From positions 1 to 39,073 of the IMG/VR virus record IMGVR_UViG_3300025274_000022: a stretch of 39,073 nucleotides of DNA; one strand, written 5' to 3'. Positions 1,070 through 29,708 of the stretch are shown one piece after another (position 1 is the first letter of the stretch; every line of letters starts with the position of its first letter). Below the pieces are notes generated by a model. That model saw nothing but the letters and a program-made list of their open reading frames with translations, did not search any database and was not told where the DNA came from. Both the position numbers and the translations under genes were made by a program. The stretch is from a virus.

Positions 1070-1166
1070 CTTGTTTCCTATTGTATTTAGTCTTATCTTT
1101 AAATCTTTTGGGTGTAAAGTATTTTAAAACCCTGGCTATAGGATTACGGCTTTTTTTCTTAGCCAT
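1023..1166 (-). CDS. Small basic hypothetical protein
   Basis: A 47-aa protein beginning MAKKKSRNPIARVLKYFTPK, rich in Lys and Arg with a few aromatics. The ATG at 1166 is preceded by GGAG. The start overlaps the end of the 37-aa membrane peptide gene (ATGGCTAA), and its end overlaps the zinc-ribbon gene by 47 nt. It has no recognised domain. The charge suggests nucleic-acid or membrane-surface contact, but this is inference. Confidence 0.55.
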   Translation of the reverse strand: MAKKKSRNPIARVLKYFTPKRFKDKTKYNRKQDGRLWKRNMGKRDAL

Positions 1167-1272
1167 AGACTCCACAACAACTAAACTTAGCCATAAAGAA
1201 ATAGTGATAGATACTGAATCCTGCAGCAATTCCGATAGAAAGTCCAATTAAAATTGCTATAATCCATTTCAT
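1159..1272 (-). CDS. 37-aa membrane peptide
   Basis: MKWIIAILIGLSIGIAAGFS is one hydrophobic segment, followed by a short polar tail with adjacent Cys residues (FSCCGVYG). The ATG overlaps the stop of the preceding 38-aa gene (ATGA), and its own stop lies just inside the next gene start. There is no good Shine-Dalgarno, so it probably depends on coupling. A single-pass inner-membrane peptide is expected; its role is unknown. Confidence 0.5.
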   Translation of the reverse strand: MKWIIAILIGLSIGIAAGFSIYHYFFMAKFSCCGVYG

Positions 1273-1385
1273 TTTTTTATATTCCAAATAAGGGTTCCAC
1301 CTAGGATAAAGGCTAACCAAAACATCCACGCATCATTAGCAATAAATATAAAGTTCATCACATCTATAAAATCAGTCCACATCAT
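1269..1385 (-). CDS. 38-aa membrane peptide
   Basis: MMWTDFIDVMNFIFIANDAW leads into a hydrophobic span (MFWLAFILGGTLIW) and a Lys-Lys end. Trp and Phe are frequent. It is the first gene after the hairpin at 1433-1456. A TATGAT/GATAAT-like -10 lies about 10-20 nt upstream, though no convincing -35 accompanies it. Its stop overlaps the next start by 4 nt. Two alternative Met starts are adjacent. Probably a single-pass membrane peptide of unknown role. Confidence 0.5.
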   Translation of the reverse strand: MMWTDFIDVMNFIFIANDAWMFWLAFILGGTLIWNIKK

Positions 1386-1432
1386 TAGAATATTATCATA
1401 ATAACTAAATATAAAGTAATAAAGATAAACAT

Positions 1433-1456
1433 CCCCATGATTTGAATATCATGGGG
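1433..1456. terminator. Perfect 9-bp hairpin, likely terminator
   Basis: CCCCATGAT (1433-1441) and ATCATGGGG (1448-1456) are perfect inverted arms around a 6-nt loop. The hairpin lies 17 nt after the lipoprotein stop. On the minus strand it is followed by ATGTTTATCTTTATTACTTT, a broken T-rich tract; on the plus strand by AAAATTAA. A moderate intrinsic terminator for the minus-strand operon is the best reading. Confidence 0.55.
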
Positions 1457-1472
1457 AAAATTAACCATCTTT

Positions 1473-1631
1473 TTAGTTGCAGTTATTTTTATCTAGATCG
1501 ATTGGTTTGTCGCCATAGAACCACACCCACGATGAAATTTTCGTTCCATCCTGTGTATAGGTACATTTTTTGCCTACCGAGCAGGCGCTCAGGGCAAATA
1601 ATAGGGCTAACACCAAGAATAGTTTATTCAT
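1473..1631 (-). CDS. Small lipoprotein
   Basis: A 52-aa protein starting MNKLFLVLALLFALSACSVG. Lys at residue 3, a hydrophobic core and LSAC with Cys17 form a classic signal-peptidase II lipobox. The mature part would be about 36 residues with two further Cys and several Trp/Phe (SSWVWFYGD). AAGGAG lies 8 nt before the ATG. A longer reading starting at 1658 lacks a ribosome site and was discarded. Small phage lipoproteins made early can block receptors and exclude other phages (T5 Llp is the known case). Here that is only a possibility. It could also be an outer-membrane spanin, but the lysis genes are 11 kb away. Confidence 0.75.
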   Translation of the reverse strand: MNKLFLVLALLFALSACSVGKKCTYTQDGTKISSWVWFYGDKPIDLDKNNCN

Positions 1632-1764
1632 TGTTGCTCCTTTTAGCTTCGTTCTCATACGTTAACGCTTCCGCGTTTTCTTGATTGCTTTGTTGACAGC
1701 ACTCGCCTTTGTCTTCTTTTTCTTTTGAGTGCGTACCACAACATTTTTTTAGATCTATTGGCAC
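1624..1764 (-). CDS. 46-aa acidic/polar protein with two CC pairs, GTG start
   Basis: A GTG start at 1764 has GAGGAG 8 nt upstream and overlaps the stop of the preceding Cys-rich gene (GTGCCAATAG). The product begins MPIDLKKCCGTHSKEKEDKG and is rich in Lys, Glu, Gln and Asn, with Cys pairs at residues 8-9 and 22-23. Its TAA overlaps the lipoprotein start (ATGAATAA). Both junctions have the spacing of coupled genes, which is the main support because the protein itself resembles no family I know. The CC pairs may join the neighbouring 11-Cys protein in metal or disulfide chemistry. Confidence 0.5.
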   Translation of the reverse strand: MPIDLKKCCGTHSKEKEDKGECCQQSNQENAEALTYENEAKRSNNE

Positions 1765-1907
1765 GTTTCACACTCCTCTGTGTCATCTTGCACTACCTCT
1801 TTGTCACACGCGCAGGCTTGACAAGAACACACTCCATACATATCAGAATGTTCCTGTAAAGAACAGTGACAAATGCAGCCACAATTTTTGCATTTAACTT
1901 CAGTCAT
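1755..1907 (-). CDS. 50-aa cysteine-rich protein (11 Cys)
   Basis: Starts MTEVKCKNCGCICHCSLQEH; the second half carries CSCQACAC and a final ECETC. Eleven of 50 residues are Cys, spaced CxxCxCxC, CxCxxCxC and CxxC, with one or two His. This is the composition of metallothionein-like or multi-zinc proteins, and an Fe-S scaffold cannot be excluded. It has no signal peptide, so it should be cytosolic. The ATG overlaps the stop of the 19-aa ORF upstream, and the gene's stop overlaps the next start. It is too short for most gene finders, so it may be missing from databases of related phages. Confidence 0.65.
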   Translation of the reverse strand: MTEVKCKNCGCICHCSLQEHSDMYGVCSCQACACDKEVVQDDTEECETCQ

Positions 1908-1959
1908 AGAAGCCCTTAAAGAACCAGTCCATAAATTTTTTCCACCATTTTTTAATCAT
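1900..1959 (-). CDS. 19-aa aromatic/cationic micro-ORF
   Basis: The peptide is MIKKWWKKFMDWFFKGFYD: three Trp, four Phe, one Tyr and five Lys in 19 residues, an amphipathic membrane-active pattern. AGGAG sits 7 nt before the ATG. The ATG overlaps the stop of the 217-aa gene (ATGATTAA), and its TGA overlaps the start of the Cys-rich gene (ATGACTGA). It may be a real peptide that inserts in the membrane, or a coupling leader that hands ribosomes to the next gene. Detection of the peptide would decide. Confidence 0.45.
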   Translation of the reverse strand: MIKKWWKKFMDWFFKGFYD

Positions 1960-2605
1960 TTTTGGTCTCCTCTATGTTATAGAAGAATCTATCCGAATCT
2001 TCTGTTTTCCATTTGCGATCATCTTCCACGTTCCATTCACTGCTTTGGGTCTTCCAGTCATAAGGTATTTCATCTCTCACAGTAAAGGATGGAATACTCC
2101 ATATTAATCTATTGTTTGGCTGAGCCGCATAGTTGCCATTCTCCAAAGCAAGTATGTGTGCGCACTTATGTTCTTGCGGGATCTCTGAATGATCAGTATC
2201 TACTATATTACTCTCTGGATGAGCCCAGTCAACTGTAAAAAGATACGCGCCAGCATACCACTTCTTGTCTTTTCCTATGAATTTCCCGGATTGACCGTCA
2301 AGGATGTCAAAAGAAGTAACGCTAGGATAGTAACTAAAGCAATTCCACAACTCCAGCTCATCAAGTCGCATCCTAGGAACTTCTTTGACATTATATCCTT
2401 TTTGGATAAATGCAGAGATGGGTAAACGGTAAAAGATTGCACCGTTTTCCATAATGGCATGGAACAAAACCGGACGACCCGTGATTGAAGCCAGCCCAAA
2501 AATGAGACAGTCTTCCACTTCTCCACGATGTTCTTTAAGATCATAGAGATACTCTCTCCGGATCTGTGCATAGATCGCCGGTGTGTTTACATTTAGATAG
2601 GCCAT
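1952..2605 (-). CDS. Conserved hypothetical phage protein, 217 aa
   Basis: A 217-aa soluble protein starting MAYLNVNTPAIYAQIRREYL. It is rich in aromatic and acidic residues, with no signal peptide or membrane span and no motif I can tie to an enzyme. The C-terminal 40 residues are highly charged (EWNVEDDRKWKTEDSDRFFY). AGGAG lies 11 nt upstream of the ATG, with an intervening ATGATAA that could distract ribosomes. It follows the 33-aa membrane peptide and the DNA polymerase gene, so it is expressed with the replication genes. Proteins of this general look are common in marine phages as unknowns. Function not assigned. Confidence 0.8.
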   Translation of the reverse strand: MAYLNVNTPAIYAQIRREYLYDLKEHRGEVEDCLIFGLASITGRPVLFHAIMENGAIFYRLPISAFIQKGYNVKEVPRMRLDELELWNCFSYYPSVTSFDILDGQSGKFIGKDKKWYAGAYLFTVDWAHPESNIVDTDHSEIPQEHKCAHILALENGNYAAQPNNRLIWSIPSFTVRDEIPYDWKTQSSEWNVEDDRKWKTEDSDRFFYNIEETKND

Positions 2606-12365: not shown

Positions 12366-12403
12366 GTAAAATTTTCAATCCACTATTTTACAGTTATTTT
12401 TTT
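12366..12403 (+). terminator. Possible plus-strand terminator
   Basis: GTAAAAT (12366-12372) pairs with ATTTTAC (12385-12391), and a run of seven T (12397-12403) follows 5 nt later on the plus strand. It lies just after the HNH gene and overlaps the 3' end of convergent hsp20. The stem is AT-rich, so strength should be modest. A second stem, CGGGGA/TCCCCG, lies inside the HNH gene end near 12318-12337. Confidence 0.4.
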
Positions 12404-12835
12404 CGGCTTTTTGCCTTCAGGAACAATCTGATGCAGGGATACTTTTAATAATCCGTTTTTTAACTCAGCACCTTCGATTTCTACATCGTCAGCGATGGTA
12501 AACGTTTTAGAGAAGTATCTCTTTGCGATTCCTTGATGAATCACTCCATCTTTATCTGTGTCAGATTTAGTTTCCTTGATCGACTTTATATGCAACAAGT
12601 TATCCGCATACTCTACCGAAATATCCTTCTTGTCGTAGCCTGCTAAAGCTAGTTCGATATCATATTTATCGTCTCCTTTTTTTACAATATTGTAAAAAGG
12701 AAATGTAGATGTAAGCGATGAACGAAAGAACTGATCGTCGTCGAAAAAATTTTCGAAGTGATCGAAAAGATTATCGAACCCAATCGATACAGGTCTCAGT
12801 TGCTTAAAGATTGATGGTAATTTATTGAACGTCAT
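12383..12835 (-). CDS. Hsp20 small heat-shock protein
   Basis: A 150-aa alpha-crystallin-domain chaperone. FKQLRPVSIGFDNLFDHFENFF is the usual N-terminal arm. The core includes FPFYNIVKKGDDKYDIELALAGYDKKDI and AELKNGLLKVSLHQ (the G-x-L signature), and the tail is KKPKKITVK. AAGGAGG with a 5-nt spacer precedes ATG 12835; an extension to 12880 is disfavoured. It resembles IbpA-type proteins, which hold unfolded proteins as oligomers without ATP. Phage copies are common in marine T4-like and other phages, where they are thought to help virion assembly under stress. It has its own promoter and sits after the lysis genes. Confidence 0.95.
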   Translation of the reverse strand: MTFNKLPSIFKQLRPVSIGFDNLFDHFENFFDDDQFFRSSLTSTFPFYNIVKKGDDKYDIELALAGYDKKDISVEYADNLLHIKSIKETKSDTDKDGVIHQGIAKRYFSKTFTIADDVEIEGAELKNGLLKVSLHQIVPEGKKPKKITVK

Positions 12836-12920: not shown

Positions 12921-13017
12921 GTAACATTAAAAAAAGAATTAATCCCTGGTATCTATTAAAAGTAGTTACCAAGAGAGTTTCTTTGTATGCTTTGCATTTT
13001 TCCCATAAGAATTTCAT
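12901..13017 (-). CDS. 38-aa membrane peptide in lysis cassette
   Basis: Starts MKFLWEKCKAYKETLLVTTF and ends in one hydrophobic span (GLILFLMLLAIWYK). AGGAG lies 8 nt before the ATG, and the start overlaps the endolysin stop (TAATG). Its place after endolysin and its single membrane segment suggest a lysis accessory, such as an inner-membrane spanin or pinholin-like partner. The length is short for a spanin, and no partner lipoprotein is adjacent. Confidence 0.6.
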   Translation of the reverse strand: MKFLWEKCKAYKETLLVTTFNRYQGLILFLMLLAIWYK

Positions 13018-13493
13018 TATGCATCTCCTAACATAGGTTTATATCGTGTGTAATTATCTTCATCTTTATACGCTCTGAGATTCTCCTTTATATTTTCATC
13101 TTGGTCAGGGTTGTAGGCGACGTGCACCCAGCCTGAGTTGGGTTCGTCTGGATTCCAGAATTCTAATATCATTTGATCATACATGAGGTTCTCTTTGATC
13201 CAGTTAAAGACGTCCCCATTGGGTGTTCCGTAGATTTCGAAGTCCGCTGCCATGCCTGAGGCATGTTGGCTGTCTGAGGAGCTCCCTAGAGCCACACAGA
13301 GCGCTGCGGAGCGATAACCTGAGGATACACTCACAACGTGATTAAAATGGTCTCTAACGGGCTGTAGGACCCTCTCACAGAGCAATCTGAGGTTTTCGAT
13401 ATGGTCTGGGCTAGGATCATTCGGAATACACTTGCGTTCAGCCATTTGAGACTTGGTCATTTCAACCAAGCTAAAATTCTTAGATAGTTGCAT
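13017..13493 (-). CDS. Endolysin, peptidase M15 family
   Basis: A 158-aa zinc peptidase of the D-alanyl-D-alanine carboxypeptidase / L-Ala-D-Glu type (peptidase M15_3). SSGYRS (57-62) is followed by H77ASGMAAD84 and W-V-H124. H77, D84 and H124 form the zinc site, and E111 (LEFW) is near the catalytic position. It has no signal peptide, so it needs a holin to reach the wall. ATG 13493 overlaps the holin-like stop. It should cut peptide links in peptidoglycan at the end of infection. Confidence 0.93.
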   Translation of the reverse strand: MQLSKNFSLVEMTKSQMAERKCIPNDPSPDHIENLRLLCERVLQPVRDHFNHVVSVSSGYRSAALCVALGSSSDSQHASGMAADFEIYGTPNGDVFNWIKENLMYDQMILEFWNPDEPNSGWVHVAYNPDQDENIKENLRAYKDEDNYTRYKPMLGDA

Positions 13494-26544: not shown

Positions 26545-27189
26545 CTACTTAGGAATACCCAGCATTGGGCGTTTATCAAAAAGGTTTGTTTTAGCAAAGG
26601 GTCCATTTGCATGATTATAATGCAGAAAGACTTGAGAACAAACCGTTCCTTGGAAAGGTTCTCGCCAATGCTCTAGTTCGCAACCAGAATAAATCAGCAT
26701 GTCTCCTACTTTTAAATCGACTCGCACTCCTTTAGGAGCTCCGGGTTTAATGGTTTGTTTATATTCATCGATAACAAAGTTAGCTCCAGTAGGATCTAAA
26801 AAGATAGGCCATTCATCTCCCCCTAAATGGAGAGTGGTAGAAATTTCACAACTCGGTCGATCCTTATGTCGTCTTAAAATATTTCCTTTTTCATAGAGGC
26901 GTGTGTAAGTATAAGTAGGAACTAATTCCATTCCTGTTTTCTCTTTCATGACAGGAATCATATACATAAGTAAAGTCTCCATGACCCAGTCTGCATATTT
27001 GGTATAGCAACCTGGAACCTGTGTATCATCACGTCTTCCAATAAAAGGATTAAGAGGATTCACTTTATTATTTTTCATCATAAAATCTACAGCGTCTCGT
27101 TGTAGCATCATATAATTAAAGATAAAGTTAGCGAGCTCTTTGGAAAGAGCTTGTCGAATCACTTGGTATTTTTTGGTTTTAAAACTCAC
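26545..27189 (-). CDS. 2OG-Fe(II) oxygenase 1 (HxD type)
   Basis: A 214-aa dioxygenase with Fe ligands H108-K-D110 (LRRHKDRPSCEIS) and distal H174 (CELEHWREPF). GDMLIYSG before the last His is typical of phage 2-oxoglutarate/Fe(II) oxygenases. IKPGAPKGVRVDLKVGD marks the double-stranded beta-helix edge. It is fifth and last in a five-gene oxygenase cassette, with a GTG start overlapping the preceding stop by 4 nt. It should couple oxidation of 2-oxoglutarate to hydroxylation of an unknown protein, nucleic acid or small-molecule substrate. A 50-nt gap follows before the gp10-like gene. Confidence 0.88.
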   Translation of the reverse strand: MSFKTKKYQVIRQALSKELANFIFNYMMLQRDAVDFMMKNNKVNPLNPFIGRRDDTQVPGCYTKYADWVMETLLMYMIPVMKEKTGMELVPTYTYTRLYEKGNILRRHKDRPSCEISTTLHLGGDEWPIFLDPTGANFVIDEYKQTIKPGAPKGVRVDLKVGDMLIYSGCELEHWREPFQGTVCSQVFLHYNHANGPFAKTNLFDKRPMLGIPK

Positions 27190-27803
27190 CCTACTTTTCC
27201 TTCTTCATTGACTTGAATAAAATTAAAAGAGACAGAAACCCTCCATCCTTTTTCTCCTTTTTCTTGGGATTCATTTATTTCTACACCATGATGGAGCCAT
27301 GCAGGAAACATAATCATCTGGCCTTCTATAGCAGGATAAACGACGACCCGCCATAAAGCTCTGGGTAAATCTTCTACTCTTCGAGGGAGTATAATATTAG
27401 GTCCAGGTCTCGGGTCTTCCACAAATAGACGTCCTGAATTTTTAGGAACTTTTATATAATACACACCGGACCATTGAGAATTAGGATGGATGTGTTGTTT
27501 ATTATAGGCGCCTGGGTAATTAATATTAGCCCACATATTGCCTAAACCTGGTTTAGGGGCCATTCCATAATCCTTATAAACTTCTTCTTGCATGGCAAAA
27601 AGTTCATCAAGCAAGGGTTGGTATTCTGCTTTATTATTCATATTAGTGGGACTATGCCAGCCCCCGCCTGCATTGGTTTTCGTTTCGCTTTTAGATTTTT
27701 TACTCCAGGCTTTAATATGTTTAAATAAATATGGATTTAATTTTTTAGAATCTTTCACCATCTTCATATAAATGGGAGTAGGAAACAGAATTTCTCGGTT
27801 CAT
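27186..27803 (-). CDS. 2OG-Fe(II) oxygenase 2 (TIGR02466-like)
   Basis: A 205-aa protein of the putative 2OG-Fe(II) oxygenase family TIGR02466. Candidate Fe ligands are H104-I-H106 and H172 (AWLHHGVE), with R188 (WRVSVSFN) for 2-oxoglutarate. The usual HxD is HxH here, as I recall for the family. SGVYYIKVP, EDPRPGPN and GWRVSVSFNFIQ are shared closely with oxygenase 5 at 29037, so the two are paralogs. It overlaps both neighbours by 4 nt. Substrate unknown. Confidence 0.88.
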   Translation of the reverse strand: MNREILFPTPIYMKMVKDSKKLNPYLFKHIKAWSKKSKSETKTNAGGGWHSPTNMNNKAEYQPLLDELFAMQEEVYKDYGMAPKPGLGNMWANINYPGAYNKQHIHPNSQWSGVYYIKVPKNSGRLFVEDPRPGPNIILPRRVEDLPRALWRVVVYPAIEGQMIMFPAWLHHGVEINESQEKGEKGWRVSVSFNFIQVNEEGKVG

Positions 27804-28384
27804 TTAAATGGAGGTCCTCCAAACCACATTACTAAAGACTGTCTAACCCCTTTTTTAACTTTTGCCACACGGTGACGAATCAGGCTATTAAAAAAAATGG
27901 CTTGACCTTGCATCAATTGAGGGGGTTTATTACCTTCACTCATAAATTCTAAATCCCCTCCTTCAAATTCATTTTGAGGAGATAGTAGAATCGTCATGGA
28001 TATTTTTCTAACGGGAGGTTCATAGTGACAGTTTACATCACCATCCATATGCCAGTCATAAAATCCTCCTTTTGGATATTCAGTAAATTGGGCAGGCTCA
28101 GTAAGAGTCATTCCTTCATAACCAAAATGATTACGGTTAGCCTGCTGCATACTTCCTTCAACAATTTTATACATATCCGGCATCACCTTAAACGGAATCC
28201 AGCTGATAGTGGTAATACGCATTTTAGTATCGTGCTTTCCACCGGCCTTATCTTTATGTCCTACTTTAGCTTTCTCGGCTTTTTGTTGATGACCAATATT
28301 TATAATATCCTGACATTGTGCAGGGGTAAAAATAGGCCCCACCGTATTAGCCATTAAAGATTTCCATTTAGGTTCAAAGATCAT
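27800..28384 (-). CDS. 2OG-Fe(II) oxygenase 3 (prolyl 4-hydroxylase-like)
   Basis: A 194-aa protein with the P4Hc/PKHD pattern: H112-M-D114 (YDWHMDGDV), H171 (LIRHRVAKV) and R181 (RQSLVMWFGG) for the 2-oxoglutarate carboxylate, plus FEGGDLEF and GQAIFFNS, both characteristic. Closest by look to PKHD-type hydroxylases (YbiX/PiuC-like), shorter than the 225-aa bacterial proteins. It is the most canonical of the five. Prolyl or other side-chain hydroxylation of a virion protein is plausible but untested. Confidence 0.92.
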   Translation of the reverse strand: MIFEPKWKSLMANTVGPIFTPAQCQDIINIGHQQKAEKAKVGHKDKAGGKHDTKMRITTISWIPFKVMPDMYKIVEGSMQQANRNHFGYEGMTLTEPAQFTEYPKGGFYDWHMDGDVNCHYEPPVRKISMTILLSPQNEFEGGDLEFMSEGNKPPQLMQGQAIFFNSLIRHRVAKVKKGVRQSLVMWFGGPPFK

Positions 28385-29031
28385 TGAGCTGTCCTTGTTT
28401 GTACTGAATTATATTCAACATCAACATTACACACGAGCGTTCTTCTTTTGGCTTTTTTATTAGTCATCGGATAAACCACATGTCTCACGTCATAAGGGAA
28501 AACATAAAAATCTCCAATTTTCATTTTAGGAGAGTAGTCTGAAGTTACAAATTGTCCGGCTGCATTACCTAGAATTTGAAGCTGTCCATTCAGAGGTTGA
28601 TCGGGTCTAATAATTTCCGGGCCCATATCTTTAGGAAGTTTAAGAATCATTACAGAAGATAAACCTGTATAAAGTTTACCTTGATGAATGTGTACAGGAT
28701 TATAATCTCCTACTTTCATTTCATTAACCCAGATTGAATTAATATCCATGCGATACTCACCAATCTTATTCCAATCTAAATAATGTTTAAAAATAGAATA
28801 GAACCATTTTAAAATATCATCAGGAATATAACTATGTTGATGCATTTTTTCCGTGTTAGGCCCCGAAAAGAATAAAGAGACTTCATCCGGAATCTTTCCA
28901 GAAAGTTGCTTGGTGGCATTAGGCAAATGTTTCTTTTGGTTTTCGTAGAGTTCGTTGAGTCCAACAAACACTTCAAGAGGTACCTGGTATTTTAAAACCG
29001 ATTGACCTAAAAATATAAAATCATATTGCAT
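28381..29031 (-). CDS. 2OG-Fe(II) oxygenase 4 (HxH type)
   Basis: A 216-aa protein beginning MQYDFIFLGQSVLKYQVPLE. Candidate ligands, counted from this start, are H114-I-H116 (NPVHIHQGKLY) and H184 (DVRHVVYPM), with R196/R197 for 2-oxoglutarate. GDFYVFPYDVRHVVYP is the typical distal strand. An in-frame TTG at 29046 would add five residues, but ATG 29031 is more likely; neither has a clear ribosome site. The N-terminal 100 residues form a helical cap that differs from the other four, suggesting another substrate. Confidence 0.83.
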   Translation of the reverse strand: MQYDFIFLGQSVLKYQVPLEVFVGLNELYENQKKHLPNATKQLSGKIPDEVSLFFSGPNTEKMHQHSYIPDDILKWFYSIFKHYLDWNKIGEYRMDINSIWVNEMKVGDYNPVHIHQGKLYTGLSSVMILKLPKDMGPEIIRPDQPLNGQLQILGNAAGQFVTSDYSPKMKIGDFYVFPYDVRHVVYPMTNKKAKRRTLVCNVDVEYNSVQTRTAQ

Positions 29032-29036
29032 TTTAT

Positions 29037-29708
29037 TTATACCCAATTTGCCTGTGTAAAATTAAAGGCAACAGATATTCTCCAACCTTTTTCTCCTTTT
29101 AATTTTGATTTATTAATTCCAGCACCATGAGCAACCCATGAAGGAAAGAAGATAGCCATTCCTTCTTTAGGGGGATAGGGTACCACTCTCCAAAGTTCTC
29201 GTGGAAGATTGTGTACAATTCTAGGTGCAATTAAATTAGGACCTGGTCGAGGATCTTCTACCCAAATACAACATTCGGGATCATCTACGGGAACTCTAAC
29301 ATAATAAACCCCCGACATTGTTGAATTAGCATGAGTATGGTGGGTATTAAATCCTCCTGGATAATTAATATTAGTCCATATGGTACTAAGTTCGACTTTA
29401 GGTTGATAACCCAGGTCTTTAAAAATGTGGTCGACCATAATATACAGCTGATTAATTAATGGTTGAAATGCGGGTCGCACATCGGTACTGCTACGCCAAG
29501 CATTAATATTGGAATAAATTAAGGGGGAGCTATGGTCATTTTTAATGTGAGTTTTTTCAATACCCTCTGGATCTTCTTTCTTCCATGCCTTAATATCTTT
29601 TAAAAGTTTCTTGTTTAATTCTTCTGTCTTTTGAAGTTCCTTTATATAAATAGGAGTGGGAAATAAAATCTCACGTTTAAGCCCTGGAAATTTAGTATCT
29701 TTCATCAT
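29037..29708 (-). CDS. 2OG-Fe(II) oxygenase 5 (TIGR02466-like, paralog of oxygenase 2)
   Basis: A 223-aa protein. Candidate ligands are H124-T-H126 (HHTHANSTMSGVYYV) and H194 (SWVAHGAGI), with R210 (GWRISVAFNF). EDPRPGPNLIAPR and LPRELWRVVPYP align almost residue for residue with oxygenase 2, so the pair arose by duplication and then diverged at the N-terminus. It is the first gene of the cassette, starting 17 nt after the coiled-coil gene. Its substrate is unknown. Confidence 0.88.
   Translation of the reverse strand: MMKDTKFPGLKREILFPTPIYIKELQKTEELNKKLLKDIKAWKKEDPEGIEKTHIKNDHSSPLIYSNINAWRSSTDVRPAFQPLINQLYIMVDHIFKDLGYQPKVELSTIWTNINYPGGFNTHHTHANSTMSGVYYVRVPVDDPECCIWVEDPRPGPNLIAPRIVHNLPRELWRVVPYPPKEGMAIFFPSWVAHGAGINKSKLKGEKGWRISVAFNFTQANWV

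Follow-up and report, generated by a model that had tools for sequence, protein, structure and literature searches.

A chain of overlapping micro-genes in HTVC027P-type pelagiphages and its possible role in membrane-anchored metal binding

Introduction

Phages of SAR11 are among the commonest marine viruses. Several described systems resemble parts of the pelagiphage locus reported here. Bacterial metallothioneins of the SmtA type (Pfam family PF02069) are very small proteins in which about 20% of the residues are Cys; they carry CxC and CxxC motifs, contain some His, and are poor in aromatic residues. Ordinary zinc fingers have a Cys density below about 20%. Disruptin of phage phiKT is a cationic peptide that permeabilizes membranes. 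Phage lipoproteins provide another point of comparison: T5 Llp is described in PMC9586334 as a periplasmic lipoprotein that jams FhuA. Finally, the early genes of the cultured pelagiphage HTVC027P are reported to be all of unknown function (PMC12753301).

We examined one IMG/VR virus record in full (39,073 bases; hereafter, the window). Its nearest named relatives are the Pelagibacter phages HTVC027P and HTVC023P, together with the uncultured 023Pt_psg01, and the host is therefore probably SAR11. On the minus strand, behind the gene for DNA polymerase A (4590-2731), lies a chain of five genes, four of them very small. The initial annotation of this chain proposed a module for host takeover or superinfection exclusion, a putative role that we find plausible. 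We describe the organization of the chain, the evidence that its parts are genes, the features of each product, and the exchange of parts among related phages, and we weigh explanations for what the set may do.

Organization of the chain

The features of the locus, including micro-ORFs that prolong the chain, are as follows.

1952..2605, minus strand: 217-aa gene of the PHROG 3704 family; pN/pS 0.12
1900..1959, minus strand: H19, a 19-aa cationic aromatic amphipathic peptide, MIKKWWKKFMDWFFKGFYD; 8-nt overlap with the stop of the 217-aa gene; pN/pS 0.36
1755..1907, minus strand: F50, a 50-aa Cys-rich protein with 11 Cys, CxxCxCxCHC...H...CxCxxCxC...CxxCQ; 8-nt overlap with H19; pN/pS 0.17
1624..1764, minus strand: F46, a 46-aa protein with a GTG start, CCxxH...CC; 10-nt overlap with F50; pN/pS 0.44
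1473..1631, minus strand: F52, a 52-aa lipoprotein with lipobox LSAC and two more invariant Cys; 8-nt overlap with F46; pN/pS 0.13
1967..1972, minus strand: ribosome site GAGGAG of the 19-aa gene, from the sequence
1385..1468, minus strand: 27-aa hydrophobic micro-ORF that prolongs the chain; found by HMM in 7/84 loci
1269..1385, minus strand: 38-aa hydrophobic micro-ORF; 1-nt overlap with the 27-aa ORF; 3/84 loci
1159..1272, minus strand: 37-aa ORF with one membrane stretch and an SCCGVYG tail; 4-nt overlap with the 38-aa ORF; 4/84 loci

All five ORFs first annotated are present: the 217-aa gene, the 19-aa ORF, the 50-aa ORF with 11 Cys, the 46-aa ORF with a GTG start and two CC pairs, and the lipoprotein. 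Successive stops overlap the next starts by 8, 8, 10, and 8 nt. The further statement that a purine-rich ribosome site precedes each small gene holds for H19 and F46 (GAGGAG in both) and for F52 (AAGGAG); it is slightly overstated, since the site before F50 (AAGGG) is weak. The length of F52 is counted from the start that has a ribosome site, and the ORF listing carries a longer 61-aa form. The chain extends past the 1473-2605 interval with the 27-, 38-, and 37-aa ORFs.

Other small or unusual genes occur in the window. An 81-aa protein (824-1069) has two CxxC pairs and is zinc-ribbon-like, with a weak Pfam match below cut-off. A 71-aa ORF on the plus strand (497-712), outside the minus-strand chain, has a signal-like start and several Cys. 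An M15-type endolysin (13017-13493) belongs to PHROG 894, and a small heat-shock-like protein, recognized by eye, lies downstream of it at 12383-12835. Four adjacent genes at 26545-29708 resemble, by eye, 2-oxoglutarate/iron oxygenases.

Conservation and selection

Viral contigs were scanned with the 217-aa protein, and the best 80 of at least 599 relatives were used; the tallies therefore hold for close relatives only. The window, four named phages, and these relatives gave 84 loci with a closed 217-aa frame (one locus, L018, has an open frame and was left out). A profile search of the downstream ORFs in these loci, many of whose contigs end early, recovered F50 in 72/84, F46 in 32/84, and F52 in 36/84. 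Of the loci from the window and the best-80 relatives, 61 extend 600 nt or more beyond the 217-aa gene; among these, F50 is present in 54, F52 in 30, and F46 in 24. H19, whether short, long, or fused, is present in 39 of the 61, or 40 if the fused form in locus L049 is counted. The best-80 loci and a second set of fetched loci partly share contigs, and identical sequences were removed ahead of the selection analysis.

All five frames are under purifying selection and are real genes. The pN/pS ratios, computed from disjoint pairs of relatives, are 0.36 for H19 (16 pairs), 0.17 for F50 (52 pairs), 0.44 for F46 (34 pairs), 0.13 for F52 (44 pairs), and 0.12 for the 217-aa gene (57 pairs), against 0.74-2.0 for the two shifted frames of each gene. 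The proposed check for constraint in related phages thus found purifying selection in every frame. For H19, the 95% interval is 0.23-0.56, and its shifted frames give 0.74 (0.48-1.20) and 0.93 (0.64-1.33); since these intervals touch or approach that of H19, the case for its coding rests on pN/pS and amphipathicity jointly. The overlaps are also kept: F50 and F46 overlap by 10 nt in 89/91 cases, and F46 and F52 by 8 nt in 73/83. When 39,073-nt strands were simulated under a dinucleotide model, 1 of 100 had four chained ORFs that matched or exceeded these lengths and overlapped in this way. Conservation is a stronger proof of coding than this simulation.

Stops or frameshifts in the micro-genes with the flanking genes kept, which had been named as grounds for doubt, were not seen: the F50 family is retained in all 30 of the loci that have F52 and at least 600 nt downstream. 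Decayed copies of the micro-genes were not seen either, and the absences inspected are clean; in the loci inspected that lack F46, the neighbors mostly abut cleanly. The claim that these frames are coding is now well supported.

A different reading would make the 19-aa ORF a mere leader for translational coupling, its sequence irrelevant, or would make the micro-ORFs chance frames. The ORF is indeed very short, and 91 of 135 loci have an ATG at -8 nt relative to where the 217-aa gene ends, whichever gene comes next. Against this stand the contrast between the pN/pS of H19 and that of its shifted frames, the maintained amphipathicity of the peptide, and the finding of the same type of peptide fused or elsewhere. 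Chance origin was rejected on the pN/pS contrast and the simulated strands. The reading as a whole is already largely refuted, and we regard it as highly improbable.

Features of the Cys-rich proteins

The alignment of F50 (48 rows of 38-72 aa) has invariant C6, C9, C13, H14, C15, C29, and C32. Members contain 8-11 Cys (median 10.5), with a median net charge of -4 and a median of 1 aromatic residue. Short forms retain CxxC, CHC, and CxxCxC, a ligand set that would suffice for two tetrahedral metal ions. In the divergent copies of L030 and L150, Cys is still dense, but the spacing differs and the CHC motif has lost its His. The alignment of F46 has invariant C9, H12, C22, and C23, and its median net charge is -5. 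The metal binding first suggested for the 50-aa protein remains a prediction, consistent with its invariant Cys/His pattern.

F50 shares with metallothioneins a small size, Cys density, CxC motifs, and few aromatic residues. It differs in being phage-only in the scans made, and an amphipathic helix often accompanies it or forms part of the same protein; its motif order presumably also differs from that of the SmtA type. Matches to PF02069 were absent among the 48 F50 members (E≤0.5) and for the forms in L030 and L150 (E≤1). More broadly, a Pfam search with the 48 members (E≤0.5) returned two stray matches only, PHROGs gave weak matches only, and NCBIfam and PDB gave none. For F50, F46, and the knuckle-bearing H19 described below, no zinc-finger family matched above its cut-off; PADLOC returned nothing; and the small proteins received no name from Pfam, PHROGs, NCBIfam, PADLOC, or PDB. 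Scanning 84,980 genomes of bacteria and archaea for conserved patterns gave 48 raw matches for F50 and 62 for F52, none of them a relative by tblastn; distant cellular relatives could be missed, because the scans require exact conserved stretches. The AlphaFold model of F50 (pLDDT 56) has no fold and was too poor for a structure search, and it neither favors nor excludes a protein organized by metal.

Features of the H19 peptide

H19 has the features of a cationic membrane-active peptide, being both cationic and amphipathic. Across 38 distinct peptides the mean hydrophobic moment is 0.63, compared with 0.39 after shuffling; 24 of the 38 are amphipathic at p<0.05, and the median net charge is +4. 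These values make H19 a candidate membrane-active peptide, as first proposed; peptides of the CWPW type are mostly not significant for amphipathicity.

Features of the F52 lipoprotein

F52 looks like a lipoprotein, as first annotated: across 31 rows, most carry the LSAC lipobox, and two further Cys are invariant. The Pfam model LPAM_1 scores 16.7 bits, under its cut-off of 20. Database hints of exclusion come from PHROG 1119 'Cor', which 26 of 31 members match at E≤0.1 (best 0.0041), and from T5 Llp, the best PDB sequence match (E=0.15). These hints rest on the signal-peptide end of the protein. F52 and Llp align with an hhalign probability of 90, and homology between them was rejected, as the signal peptide carries the likeness: the mature parts alone score 8.2, compared with a mean of 8.5 and a maximum of 12.9 for shuffled sequences, and 5 of 50 controls in which only the mature part was shuffled, behind an unchanged signal, score as high. 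T5 Llp and Cor are, like F52, short phage lipoproteins whose mature part contains a Cys pair; Llp differs in its length of 77 rather than 52 aa. F52 had no match in annotated phages.

Exchange of parts and spread among phages

Related ocean phages keep, swap, and fuse parts of the cassette. On the tree of the 217-aa gene (61 loci), the number of state changes is 13 for H19, 10 for F52, 6 for F46, and 4 for F50. H19 may stand alone; in 11 of 80 loci it forms the front of a longer protein with a CxxHxRYKKSCPxC-like motif (a CxxH...CxxC knuckle) at its end. An H19-like helix follows a Cys-rich part within one ORF in L049 and L052, where the Cys-rich part is F50 by HMM, and in gp12 of HTVC027P, by eye. 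The DDTxECxxCQ tail of F50 sits on F46 in L046 and L068. In loci without F46, F52 often begins with MSI, the first residues of F46, joined to its own start (L020, L028, L042, L069, and L081), which suggests that parts were exchanged cleanly at this junction.

F50-(F46)-F52 is also found with no 217-aa gene ahead of it. Examples are L091, L102, L103, L108, and L150, where capsid-like genes precede it; in L103, L108, and L150 the 217-aa gene lies downstream of the F50 block. A capsid gene of that type lies at most 1.6 kb upstream of F50 in 4/69, 6/64, and 0/33 loci of three sets. F50 stands without H19 in 17 of 61 loci (16 if the fused L049 is counted as H19-bearing), and H19 without F50 is rare (2 of 61, one being L030, which has a divergent Cys-rich ORF in that place). 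On the tree, with few informative pairs, no linked gain and loss was seen for H19 and F50 (9 independent pairs, F50 being the same in most) or for F46 and F52 (only 5 independent pairs, with no trend); the plain Fisher test for the latter pair (p=0.0016, 61 loci) ignores shared descent. NifU-like proteins (GSCSGCAMSKITL, by eye) follow F52 in L015, L016, L017, and L139, and 12 loci in total contain one.

Relatives of F50 extend to another phage family, the Autographiviridae pelagiphages, where they lie just before the capsid gene. In phages of the genera Fussvirus, Stopavirus, and Chosvirus (Gjalp gp42, Eyrgjafa gp29, HTVC041P, and Deep1-GF2-KM23-C739), the F50 core is 53-63% identical by tblastn, and an aromatic helix-like stretch adjoins or is fused to it, as with H19 and F50. 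F50 adjoins an aromatic peptide in Deep1-GF2-KM23-C739, has an FWKVM helix-like tail in Gjalp and Eyrgjafa, and is followed by an aromatic peptide of this kind in L344, L346, and L353. The Gjalp protein fetched 39 loci, and many of the 28 inspected have a MIKKIWNKI-type peptide nearby. The F50 ORFs of Deep1-GF2-KM23-C739 and HTVC041P lack annotation; the former (L163:3450-3644) lies directly after the gene of a 36-aa aromatic peptide.

Closer to the window, HTVC027P gp12 and the micro-ORFs of HTVC023P occupy the same site behind the 217-aa gene and combine a Cys-rich stretch with an aromatic helix, fused in gp12. They differ in having no match to the F50 model, and they are labeled 'hypothetical protein' or left unannotated. 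In HTVC023P (L002:4353-4833), an unannotated Cys-rich stretch and the peptide MIDKYLYKFFDALDKFGSLIDNLFKRKKKK stand right behind the 217-aa gene in reverse order.

The 217-aa gene and its purM label

The family of the 217-aa gene (PHROG 3704) matches 114 records, and many of the phage records listed are labeled PurM, phosphoribosylaminoimidazole synthetase, or ferredoxin. According to PMC9599517, purM is present in 45% of 82 HTVC023P-type genomes. No Pfam family, AIR synthetase included, matches the 217-aa protein at E≤0.1, and NCBIfam gives a stray match to another model. The predicted structure is all-beta (pLDDT 75). A fold search found no PDB match at E≤0.001; at the same threshold it matched three viral models whose function is unnamed. 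For Tudor/KOW-like barrels the highest Z is 7.5, across about 50 residues, a value below 8 that may reflect just a common arrangement, and the matches listed include no AIR synthetase. The name PurM looks doubtful for this family, given the lack of an AIR synthetase profile and the all-beta model, and the auxiliary metabolic gene label 'purM' may be wrong in pelagiphages and cyanophages alike (window 1952-2605; L248:2501-3148). In HTVC008M, a gene of the family lies between genes for ribonucleotide reductase subunits.

Possible functions of the cassette

Our best explanation, tentative and given somewhat less than an even chance, is a translationally coupled cassette of accessory micro-genes in HTVC027P-type pelagiphages whose products would be metal-thiolate proteins anchored at the inner membrane. 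The overlapping micro-genes would be translationally coupled. F50 and the optional F46 would be cytosolic metal-thiolate proteins of small size, in which the invariant CxxC...CHC...CxxC core most likely holds at least two Zn(II), or Cu(I). H19, a cationic amphipathic Trp/Lys peptide, would lie flat in the inner membrane and bring the metal-binding module to it, whether made on its own from an overlapping gene or fused to that module; F52 would be an optional lipoprotein partner in the envelope. The set may act at the infected cell's membrane by buffering or withdrawing thiol-binding metal or by shielding thiols. This proposal draws on the selection on all frames, the invariant Cys and His, the dense Cys of divergent copies, the fusions of helix and Cys-rich part, the aromatic helix-like stretches beside F50 in Autographiviridae pelagiphages, the amphipathicity of H19, and the fact that F50 without a separate H19 is common and the converse rare. 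Counted against it are the lack of a library family and an AlphaFold fold for F50 and the lack of tree-linked gain and loss. In a bolder form, the proteins would make up a phage-specific system of metallothionein-like mini-proteins, tethered to the membrane and assembled from interchangeable units (amphipathic helix, CHC cluster, CxxH knuckle, and DDTxECxxCQ tail), that takes over zinc or copper in SAR11 during infection, a version that we consider rather unlikely.

The same features lend themselves to other functions. If the cassette were an accessory to lysis, H19 would permeabilize membranes as disruptin does, the acidic F50 and F46 would restrain it, and F52 would be the outer-membrane subunit of a spanin. 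The opposite charges of H19 and the two Cys-rich proteins suit such an arrangement, as do the next genes of some relatives, which include membrane-plus-coil proteins (by eye) and sometimes an M15 endolysin: in 21 F50 loci of the best-80 set with at least 2500 nt downstream, the VQMP family occurs in 12, the MIEKL family in 6, and M15 in 3. F52 is lipoprotein-like, as an outer-membrane spanin would be, and membrane-plus-coil genes lie downstream in some loci and not in others. Each of two PHROG spanin models is matched by only 1 of 31 F52 members (E 0.083 and 0.095), and the M15 endolysin of the window is far from the chain. F50 is not merely an antidote, since it is mostly retained where H19 is absent, and an anchor is preferred to a toxin for H19 because the evidence from fusions and neighbors comes from unlike phages. 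We hold a role in lysis to be unlikely. Superinfection exclusion, in which F52 would block an outer-membrane receptor from the periplasm in the manner of T5 Llp or Cor while H19 and F50 act at the inner membrane against incoming DNA, appears unlikely to a similar degree. F52 is small, strongly constrained, and of similar plan (an acyl Cys, then a Cys pair), and the weak Llp and Cor matches, together with the action of Llp on FhuA from the periplasm (PMC9586334), point in this direction. The likeness to Llp is, however, limited to the signal peptide; F52 of the window sits among micro-genes downstream of DNA polymerase rather than beside a receptor-binding gene; and 31 of the 61 loci with enough sequence have no F52 within 1.2 kb.

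The metal itself may be purely structural. The invariant His and CxxC spacing would also suit a partner-binding finger with two zinc ions and no part in metal trafficking. In host takeover, F50, F46, and H19 in its knuckle form could then act as adaptors to a host target, for example RNA polymerase or an enzyme of the membrane. The invariant cores of F50 (CxxC...CHC...CxxC) and F46 (CxxH...CC) suit such adaptors, as does the repeated swapping of short modules between proteins, for instance the F50 tail on F46. The Cys density of F50, at about 20%, is above that of ordinary zinc fingers, the zinc-finger families gave no match above cut-off, and the divergent copies have a different spacing and no His in CHC; on balance we find structural adaptors quite unlikely. 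Anchored metal-thiolate proteins remain our preferred, and tentative, explanation.

Significance

Genes of about 17-60 codons are easily missed by usual annotation, as illustrated by the unannotated F50 of Deep1-GF2-KM23-C739 and by gp12 of HTVC027P, a bare hypothetical protein. The cassette described here is widespread among the relatives found, is under selection, and has been repeatedly rebuilt. Its small proteins are short enough for chemical synthesis, and the cultured relative HTVC027P, growing on HTCC1062, makes the question of their function testable now. The searches made found no literature on phage metallothionein; if F50-type proteins bind metal, they would constitute, as far as the literature was searched, an undescribed metal-binding module of phages.
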